Shown piece by piece: positions 37,224 through 61,632 of a stretch of 64,000 nucleotides of DNA. Origin of the DNA: Cyanobacteria bacterium FACHB-502 (GTDB lineage Bacteria; Cyanobacteriota; Cyanobacteriia; Elainellales; Elainellaceae); contig JACJNZ010000039.1 of NCBI GenBank assembly GCA_014695325.1, positions 682,001 through 746,000 of the forward strand, given 5' to 3'. Each line of letters starts with the position of its first letter. Within the stretch, counting starts at the first letter, position 1. Under the pieces are notes generated by a model that was not told the DNA's origin, made no database searches, and saw only the letters and a list, made by a program, of their open reading frames with translations. A program made the position numbers and the translations under genes.

Positions 37224-38831
37224 GTGACTCTTCAAACCGAACAACCCCCAACCGCATCGTCTGCGGAAAAGCTCAATCGCCAGATCATTGTGATTCTAGA
37301 CTTCGGTTCACAATACTCTGAGCTCATTGCCCGACGTATTCGGGAAACCCAGGTTTACTCTGAAGTGCTGTCGTACCGCACTACGATCGAACAACTGCGC
37401 CAGCTTAACCCCAAAGGCATTATTCTTTCTGGCGGACCCAGCTCGGTCTACGACGACTACGCGCCCCACTGCGATCCCGAAATTTGGAATTTGGGCGTTC
37501 CCATCCTGGGCGTGTGCTATGGAATGCAGCTTATGGTGCAGCAGTTGGGCGGCGGGGTCGAGCGAGCAGAGCGAGGAGAATATGGCAAAGCGTCGCTGTA
37601 TATTGATGACCCAACTGACCTGTTGACCAACGTGGAAGACGGCACCACGATGTGGATGAGCCATGGGGATTCAGTCACTCATCTGCCCACTGGGTTTGAA
37701 ACGCTTGCCCACACCGAAAATACCTCCTGCGCGGCGATCGCCCACCACGATAAAAAGCTGTACGGCGTGCAGTTCCATCCCGAAGTGGTGCATTCGATCG
37801 GTGGGATCGCGCTGATTCGCAACTTCGTCTATCACATCTGCGACTGTGAACCCACGTGGACGACAGCGGCTTTTGTGGAAGAATCGATTCGCGAGATCCG
37901 TGCCAGAGTTGGCGATAGACGAGTGCTGCTGGCACTTTCCGGTGGAGTGGATTCCTCGACACTGGCGTTTTTGCTCTATAAGGCGATCGGTGAACAGTTG
38001 ACCTGTATGTTTATCGATCAGGGCTTTATGCGAAAGGGAGAACCAGAGCGGCTACTCAAACTCTTCCAGGAGCAGTTTCACATTCCGGTGGAATATATCA
38101 ACGCTCGCGATCGATTCCTGGCGCAAATGGAAGGCGTGACCGATCCCGAAGAAAAGCGCAAGCGGATCGGACATGAGTTCATTCATGTATTTGAAGAAGA
38201 ATCGCGGCGGCTGGGTCCGTTTGACTATTTGGCACAGGGTACGCTTTACCCGGATGTGATCGAATCGGCAGACACCAACGTTGATCCTCAAACGGGCGAA
38301 CGAGTAGCAGTCAAAATCAAGAGCCACCACAACGTCGGCGGATTGCCCAAAGATTTGCAGTTCAAGCTGATCGAGCCGCTTCGCAAGCTGTTTAAAGACG
38401 AAGTGCGAAAAGTGGGACGATCGATCGGGCTACCCGAAGAAATTGTGCAGCGGCAGCCGTTCCCCGGTCCCGGACTGGCAATTCGGATTCTGGGCGAAGT
38501 AACCGCCGAGCGGCTCAACATTCTCCGCGATGCTGATCTGATTGTGCGGCAGGAAATCAACCGTGCCGGTATGTATCATGAGCTGTGGCAGGCGTTTGCC
38601 GTGCTGCTGCCGATCCGCAGTGTAGGCGTGATGGGCGACCAGCGCACCTATGCCTACCCGATCGTGCTCCGGTTTGTTCGCAGTGAGGATGGCATGACAG
38701 CAGATTGGGCAAGAGTGCCTTACGATCTGCTGGAAACCATTTCTAACCGGATTGTGAATGAAGTACGTGGGGTGAATCGCATTGTTTATGACATTACCTC
38801 AAAGCCACCTGGGACGATCGAGTGGGAATAG
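37224..38831 (+). CDS. guaA: GMP synthase (glutamine-hydrolysing)
   Basis: Converts XMP to GMP using glutamine and ATP. The 535-residue protein begins with the class I amidotransferase domain: GVCYGMQ carries the catalytic Cys, and GVQFHPEV the His and Glu. The PP-loop ATPase [16 protein letters not shown] follows, then the dimerisation domain ending [13 protein letters not shown]. The GTG start at 37224 has AGGA seven bases upstream. The length is standard. It follows cbiD on the same strand, and the DnaA-box-like cluster lies directly after its stop. Confidence 0.97.
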
Positions 38832-38859
38832 GTTCAGCAGTCCAGAAAATCCCCAAGCC

Positions 38860-38911
38860 TGTGGAAAACCCCCGCAAAGTCTGTGGAAAACTTCGCCACT
38901 CCTGTGGAAAA
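38860..38911. promoter_or_regulatory. Three phased DnaA-box-like sites
   Basis: TGTGGAAAA occurs at 38860-38868, 38882-38890 and 38903-38911, all in one orientation, spaced 22 and 21 bases (two helical turns). It is the exact complement of TTTTCCACA, the DnaA box described for cyanobacteria. The cluster lies 29-80 bases past guaA. A run of T follows at 38926. The sites are seen directly; DnaA binding is inference. No dnaA, dnaN or other origin gene is here, so a titration or regulatory site is as likely as an origin. Confidence 0.55.
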
Positions 38912-38949
38912 CGCCAGGGGAACGATTTTTTAATTCCCTCCCGTTTCGG

Positions 38950-39540
38950 TTAGCGACCCATCTGCCGCTTTAGATTTTCTAGCTCCTCATCCATCTCCCA
39001 GCGCCGGAAGGACTGCTCAAGCGGATCGGCGGCAGTGTTGGAACTAAAGCCCTGGTTCCAGCCGATTGTTTGCCACTGCTGGTCAGTTTGAAACTGCTCT
39101 GACTGTGCGGTGGCACGAGCAGCCGCCTCTGCTTCGGTTAATTTAACCTTGATTTCCTGACGGCGCACCTTAATTTGGCTCTGAAGCTCGATCGCCTGCT
39201 TGACACGCTCCTTGACAAGTTCCATTTGCCCCCAAAGCTGATTGCCTTGGCGCAGCAGTGCAGCTTCTCGTTCTTCGGCAGGCTTTACGAGATCGAGCCG
39301 ATTAGCATTCTTTGCCTTTTCGATTCGCACATGCCAGCGTTGAATTTCCTGAGCCGTATTCAGGATTTCGTCCTGAAGCTGTTTTTCGCGCAGGCGCAAG
39401 TTTCCCAGCAGGCGAATGGCTTCTTCCTCCTGTTCCGCAAGCTTGTCAGCAAGTGCCTGCAATTCGAGATGAGGGTTATTTCGCAGAAATTCCTCCAGTC
39501 TGCTTTCCAAAAAGCCGCTTAAATCCTCAAACAATCCCAT
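38950..39540 (-). CDS. TIGR04376-family coiled-coil protein
   Basis: A 196-residue cyanobacterial protein starting MGLFEDLSGFLESRLEEFLR, with a long coiled coil (about residues 30-150) and the C-terminal motif DPLEQSFRRWEMDEELENLK. These features match TIGR04376. The ATG at 39540 has GGAG eight bases upstream, so the six-residue extension to 39558 is rejected. No function is known; the shape resembles PspA/Vipp-like helical proteins only superficially. Confidence 0.8.
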   Translation of the reverse strand: MGLFEDLSGFLESRLEEFLRNNPHLELQALADKLAEQEEEAIRLLGNLRLREKQLQDEILNTAQEIQRWHVRIEKAKNANRLDLVKPAEEREAALLRQGNQLWGQMELVKERVKQAIELQSQIKVRRQEIKVKLTEAEAAARATAQSEQFQTDQQWQTIGWNQGFSSNTAADPLEQSFRRWEMDEELENLKRQMGR

Positions 39541-39720
39541 TGCAGACTCTCCCTTCAACGACGACTCAATGACGACTGCTGGATCGATCGGTTGTCGTCA
39601 GGCTTCCCGAATGTGCCCCTATCGTAGCAGCACTTTCAGCCAGTTTCATGCTGCTTTTGGCAGTTTGCTGGCAGTTTGCTCAGACATCCCTCTAAGGGAT
39701 TTTCCTAAGGTATTTTATAT

Positions 39721-60906: not shown

Positions 60907-61632
60907 CTACAAATAGCCATGCTCCGCTAAAAAACTGGGGCTGAGGCTGTCAGGGGGAGACATTGCGGCGGTAGGTGCGGCGGAAGACCTTGCGGCAGGA
61001 TGATTTTGGTCTGTCCGCAAAAACTTTTCCACATACTTTCCCAGTACGTCCCCTTCTAGATTGACCGGGTCGCCAGGTTGCAGTAACCGCAGATTGGTTT
61101 CGGCATACGTGACCGGAATGACCGCAACCTTAAACCAGGAGCCGATCGCATTGCAGTCTGCAATAGTGAGGCTAACGCCATTGACCGCGATGCTGCCTTT
61201 AGAGACAATGTAGCGGCTGACTCGTTCATCAGCGCGAAAGCTCATTTCCCAGGCGTTTTCGGTGCGGACTGCCGTGTCTAAATAGCCTGTGCCATCGATA
61301 TGTCCGGTGACGAAATGCCCGCCGAGCTTACTGCCAACCCGCAGTGATGGCTCCAGATTAACGATCATCTCACCAGAAGTTTTGCCCAGCGTGGTGCGAT
61401 CGAGGGTTTCTGGGGAAACAGCAGCAGTAAAGCCCTGGGGCAAGAGGTGCATCACGGTGAGACAAACACCATCAACAGCAACACTATCGCCCAGTTCTAA
61501 ATCGTGCAAAATTGCTTCTGCGCCTGCCTGTTGCGAAGCACTCCCCCCGTGAGGAAAATTGCAGGTGATTTGCATCAGGTCGGTTCCAAGGGGGCGGAGT
61601 TTGCCAATCGATCGAACAAGTCCAGTAAACAC
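60907..61632 (-). CDS. ribE: Riboflavin synthase, alpha subunit
   Basis: Joins two lumazine molecules to make riboflavin. The protein has the two-fold repeat of the family: FTGLVRSIGKLRPLG ... GDSVAVDGVCLTV and, after residue 100, HFVTGHIDGTGYL ... GSIAVNGVSLTI. The start is GTG at 61632, because the family begins M-F-T-G; the frame to 61677 adds 15 residues with no family match. Length is 241 with a Pro/Ser-rich C-terminal tail of about 35 residues beyond the usual end. No FMN riboswitch was found upstream. Confidence 0.93.
   Translation of the reverse strand: MFTGLVRSIGKLRPLGTDLMQITCNFPHGGSASQQAGAEAILHDLELGDSVAVDGVCLTVMHLLPQGFTAAVSPETLDRTTLGKTSGEMIVNLEPSLRVGSKLGGHFVTGHIDGTGYLDTAVRTENAWEMSFRADERVSRYIVSKGSIAVNGVSLTIADCNAIGSWFKVAVIPVTYAETNLRLLQPGDPVNLEGDVLGKYVEKFLRTDQNHPAARSSAAPTAAMSPPDSLSPSFLAEHGYL

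Follow-up and report, generated by a model that had tools for sequence, protein, structure and literature searches.

Three copies of a DnaA-type box lie behind guaA in the cyanobacterial DNA studied here, which raises the question whether they form a replication origin, a site that titrates DnaA or a DnaA-controlled regulatory site, the three possibilities offered by the first-pass annotation. The analyzed stretch, referred to as the window, comprises 64,000 nucleotides, and the features of the locus are compiled in Table 1. Each TGTGGAAAA box sits inside the 11-mer CTGTGGAAAAC, and the triplet, hereafter array A, fills nearly half of the 118 nt gap between the stop codons of guaA and TIGR04376. 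The arrangement initially noted, three copies of one orientation within 52 bases at steps of 22 and 21 nt, was recovered exactly, and the further match placed at about 61025 proved to be an exact TGTGGAAAA copy on the minus strand (61025-61033). An RNA family search of positions 38400-39600 returned no Rfam match. In a comparison with plasmid DNA, the matches were guaA-like or unannotated, covered at most 23% of the query, and none extended to array A.

Table 1. Coordinates of array A, its boxes and the flanking genes in the window.
Feature	Position	Strand	Remarks
DnaA-type box 1	38860..38868	+	TGTGGAAAA, the complement of TTTTCCACA
DnaA-type box 2	38882..38890	+	22 nt past box 1
DnaA-type box 3	38903..38911	+	21 nt past box 2
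Array A	38859..38912	+	three CTGTGGAAAAC 11-mers head-to-tail, two helical turns apart; triplet conserved behind guaA or TIGR04376
guaA, GMP synthase	37224..38831	+	3' end towards array A
TIGR04376 family gene	38950..39558	-	convergent; retains the array in 7/36 family genomes whose guaA is without it

The four exact copies in the window compare with 0.75 expected, and four or more were reached in none of 100 shuffles; at one mismatch there is no enrichment in the window (25 versus 19.6 expected). A genome-wide count, as proposed by the first-pass annotation, yielded 57 exact copies against 32 of the reversed motif in the source draft genome (G000, 6.6 Mb in 100 contigs), the majority of them scattered, so that single boxes are only mildly enriched. 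Tandem clusters were found as well. Given the box density of G000, simple arithmetic predicts about 1e-8 tandem triplets at 20-22 nt steps per genome. Triplets with 10-14 nt between boxes are present in 38 of 386 genomes of the phylum, with 47 places listed, and the reversed pattern was encountered once in all 386.

We further studied the conservation of array A in the 600 nt behind guaA, covering 57 of 60 relatives and scoring the best three 9-mers at steps of 20-22 nt on either strand. The triplet was found with at most 3 of 27 mismatches in 30/57 genomes and with at most 5 in 34/57, while 23/57 exceeded 5. In the same test, 100 permuted motifs averaged 0.01 matching genomes and never exceeded 1. 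Step ranges between 14 and 19 nt and between 23 and 32 nt yielded no match at all; steps of 10-12 nt yielded 8, in line with the occurrence of neighboring boxes 11 nt apart. By count of exact boxes, 28 of the 57 relatives have at least three within 1 kb. That the boxes are a product of chance might be argued from the shortness of a 9-mer and the mild enrichment of single copies, and yet this reading has next to no probability left, refuted as it is by tests anchored on neighboring genes, in which reversed or permuted controls stay near zero against tens of matches at orthologous places.

Matches to array A with at most 3 mismatches come from the family of the window (f1) and from f3, f7, f8, f19, f20 and f25, and their distance from the guaA stop ranges from tens to hundreds of nucleotides. 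Within f1, the array follows guaA in 28 of 36 genomes (up to 5 mismatches). Of the eight others, seven (G003, G010, G011, G014, G018, G019, G035) carry it behind TIGR04376, oriented as in the window, and the eighth, G027, has its TIGR04376 site outside the count. The array is about 600 nt from TIGR04376 in G010, and in G019 guaA and TIGR04376 are about 3.7 kb apart. Altogether, 35/36 genomes retain the array beside guaA or, where guaA is elsewhere, beside TIGR04376. A separate count behind TIGR04376 detected the triplet in 11/30 cases, with 0 for permuted motifs. As the array stays by TIGR04376 where guaA is elsewhere, it appears to be an independent element and not a regulator of guaA. A role as control site of guaA itself is thus disfavored by its genomic distribution, the array not being kept with guaA in 7/36 genomes of the family.

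A strict triplet scan of 84,980 species genomes retrieved 75 stretches, 59 of them titled cyanobacteria. Genes within 1.5 kb of the triplet were guaA (25 stretches), a CDF transporter gene (16), TIGR04376 (9), dnaA and/or dnaN (10) and a protoporphyrinogen-oxidase-like gene (1); 25 stretches had no reference gene within this distance. These counts overlap and include stretches ending close to the array. Note that 11/57 relatives (L026, L029, L035 and others) have one or two inverted boxes ahead of array A, at a distance of up to about 60 nt; in some the inverted box precedes box 1 by 15 nt, and others have 11 nt pairs. In G160 (L045, 1501-1551) the triplet is a near-perfect 21 nt repeat with identical spacers, unlike other arrays.

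A second array of this kind, array B, is found in the same genome (C34:512233-512284; L003, 7234-7285). It is a triplet in which one box has a mismatch, flanked by pdxJ on one side and, about 430 nt downstream, by a DUF2811 gene followed by hemJ. Among the 110 Cyanobacteriia genomes read, array B is present with at most 3 mismatches in 75 and with at most 5 of 27 in 88, distributed over 27/33 families and in one and the same orientation in 88/88; the reversed motif scored 0. A single permuted motif, a one-base shift of the box, reached 35, the next best giving 0 (up to 3 mismatches) and 2 (up to 5). The array is weak or absent in the remaining 22/110 genomes. Those beyond the 5-mismatch limit are 6/7 genomes of f2, all genomes read of f9, f12, f14, f15, f28 and f58 (12 genomes), and single genomes of other families. 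From the family ranges of their matches, array A has the narrower and array B the wider spread. Array B is a non-coding element of strong conservation, and we found no description of it. Genes for DUF2811 and TIGR04376 were also detected in Synechococcus elongatus, which served as a control. An assignment of the DUF2811 product as a ribbon-helix-helix protein was unsupported: its predicted structure (mean pLDDT 79.9) had no PDB match with E<1, and the profile search gave three weak matches, the best with an E value of 0.25. G000 further contains two box groups that were left aside, one at C34:235540-236118 and the other, two boxes 18 nt apart, at C70:70016-70042 (L004, 8017-8043) inside a 658-residue reading frame without a Pfam match.

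The helical phasing asserted in the first-pass annotation is borne out by the distribution of steps. In a survey of tandem pairs with 1-31 nt between boxes, covering 47 chosen genomes and including oriC pairs, each genome had at least one such pair, and the reversed pattern was seen once overall. Steps of 19-22 nt account for 117 of the 150 pairs listed, steps of 11-12 nt for 24 and of 30 nt for 4; the remaining 5 have other values. The regions behind guaA peak at 20-22 and 41-43 nt and the DUF2811 regions at 11, 21-22, 32-33 and 42-44 nt, with few steps or none between the peaks. Box distances are helical multiples while the spacers vary. In arrays picked for exact boxes, spacer information apart from the C flanks does not exceed 0.56 bits per position, and a weak A/T preference appears about one turn after the A-run.

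Could array A serve as a replication origin, or be a reserve or relic of one? Three exact boxes within 52 bases invite this reading, as does the AT-rich stretch near array B (0.74 in 50 nt). We nevertheless regard it as very improbable, and for array A it was rejected. The same genome has an oriC-like cluster on contig C93, where four exact boxes precede dnaN by about 290-480 nt; dnaA is on C52 and array A on C34. Cyanobacterial origins are usually described upstream of dnaN (PMC4674748). Array A has no AT-rich unwinding element beside it: AT content in the guaA gap is 0.48, with a maximum of 0.56-0.60 in 50 nt, compared with 0.59 and a maximum of 0.78 in the oriC-like region. Among 19 genomes, the kilobase preceding dnaN has boxes in both directions in 8, in one direction in 2 and no exact box in 9. 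Where both directions occur, plus boxes precede minus boxes in 8/8, whereas array A runs one way only. A GC-skew switch at the array, which the origin proposal had led one to look for, is not clearly seen near 39 kb within the 64-kb window. Of the two observations that the first-pass annotation had listed as speaking against its proposals, one was made, a larger cluster elsewhere, by dnaN on C93, and the other was not, since the triplet is conserved behind guaA in 30/57 relatives.

In seven genomes distances from dnaN range over 0.20-0.86 of half a chromosome, which speaks against a fixed position; note that this set includes G053, where dnaN is away from the box cluster and the distance means little. 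A constant distance to dnaN was therefore not observed in these genomes, unlike the situation in E. coli, where the relevant distance is reported as constant (PMC5010248). In the closed genome G053 a box cluster is found behind dnaA at the contig start (L183, 1680-1876, and L236); about 1.6 Mb separate it from dnaN, whose upstream 1 kb lacks an exact box. Contigs of Bipolaricaulota and Fraserbacteria (L070, L093, L100, L108) also carry this box in dense groups of both directions, which may be origins.

The identity of the boxes as DnaA sites, as first annotated, is supported by comparison with the origin region: array boxes are identical to those upstream of dnaN. The latter have a 5' C flank in 42/52 and a 3' C in 26/52 boxes (19 genomes), and the 5' C is common to the array boxes. 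Cyanobacterial DnaA binds TTTTCCACA boxes at oriC (PMC4674748; PMC7198777, by ChIP at the S. elongatus oriC), and dnaA is present in G000 and in 105/106 genomes of the class, the sole exception being a genome 62% complete. DnaA has been described as essential in some cyanobacteria and dispensable in others (PMC7198777). From the box identity we infer that DnaA binds the arrays as well. Precisely because binding there is a deduction, the boxes might be read by another protein, for instance one of chromosome structure, or act as RNA. Against this stand their identity to the dnaN-upstream boxes, the helical phasing and the missing Rfam match, and we judge such a reader to be distinctly unlikely.

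Alternatively, DnaA on the arrays may act on local transcription, as a roadblock at 3' ends in the case of array A and as a regulator of DUF2811-hemJ in that of array B. In 88/110 genomes array B precedes DUF2811, always in the same orientation, and transcription control fits such a position ahead of a gene too. For array A, the window has no terminator-like site between guaA and TIGR04376, and in 17 of the 25 named guaA-linked stretches the next long reading frame points back at the array. In E. coli, moreover, DnaA represses the guaB promoter (PMC2885671). On the other side, in 5 of the 22 cases with a next reading frame this runs in the same direction and is not convergent (3 stretches have none), no promoter-like site was seen close to array A in the window, and array B is hundreds of nucleotides from the DUF2811 start. 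Array A, for its part, persists where guaA is elsewhere and lies at variable distance from the guaA stop. A transcriptional role, above all for array B, is possible, and as an account of both arrays it seems to us unlikely without being far-fetched.

Both E. coli and B. subtilis are known to have DnaA sinks or inactivation sites outside oriC (PMC10380432, PMC5295017). Array A resembles the DnaA-box clusters of B. subtilis in being an intergenic group of boxes away from oriC (PMC5295017), and differs in that arrays A and B are tandem triplets with two-turn steps at two gene-anchored places. Removal of six such clusters in B. subtilis led to early initiation, and the same review doubts a significant role (PMC5295017). 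For E. coli, a dense box region near oriC has been described, along with evidence for titration (PMC12371093). The E. coli datA locus likewise has DnaA boxes off the origin, of high affinity, and performs the sink or inactivation task proposed here; its box arrangement is different, however, and it needs IHF (PMC10380432). A search with IHF-alpha gave no match above the cut-off in G000 and seven matches of HU/IHF type, four of which (contigs C95, C57, C88 and C40) contain a stop codon, so that these may be broken copies. DARS1 and DARS2 share a core of three boxes with array A, but DARS requires a head-to-head pair (PMC10380432) and the boxes of array A all point in one direction. Cyanobacterial oriC by dnaN or dnaA has the same TTTTCCACA box and in part the 11 and 21 nt steps, in contrast with boxes in both directions and an AT-rich region. 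The E. coli guaB box, finally, also lies near a gene of GMP synthesis (PMC2885671), but at the promoter, whereas array A lies past the 3' end of guaA and is separable from it. The nearest functional model would be an IHF-free DnaA sink or inactivation site.

Our preferred reading, which we consider about evenly poised between right and wrong, is that arrays A and B are non-coding DnaA-binding sites outside oriC that would hold DnaA or change its activity and so help to time the firing of oriC. DnaA molecules would sit head to tail on the same face of the helix, one box every two turns; ATP-DnaA oligomers form on head-to-tail boxes in E. coli (PMC10380432). The arrays would thereby hold part of the DnaA pool or, alternatively, place DnaA molecules in a mutual contact that alters their nucleotide state, and in either case may help to set when oriC fires. 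This role in replication control is a weaker proposition than DnaA binding itself. Counting against the array model, 23/57 relatives have no array within 600 nt of guaA and array B is weak or missing in 22/110 genomes; the variable distance from dnaN and the dispensability of DnaA in some cyanobacteria (PMC7198777) also weigh against it.

More tentatively, with the balance somewhat against it, the two arrays may belong to an ancestral two-site system of DnaA control shared by Cyanobacteriia that would do the job of datA and DARS without IHF, with DnaA loaded on a tandem lattice of two-turn period. Its sites would be array B, nearly class-wide upstream of DUF2811-hemJ, and array A, in several families at a guaA, TIGR04376 or CDF-transporter locus. 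Among the literature matches listed, titles and abstract openings contained no description of such arrays, most subscription journals lying outside the coverage. The retention of arrays A and B across many cyanobacteria points to a DnaA control site that has so far escaped description. Replication timing in cyanobacteria is poorly understood, and with two discrete, conserved cis sites outside oriC that can be footprinted, deleted and moved, titration or inactivation of DnaA becomes directly testable in this phylum.
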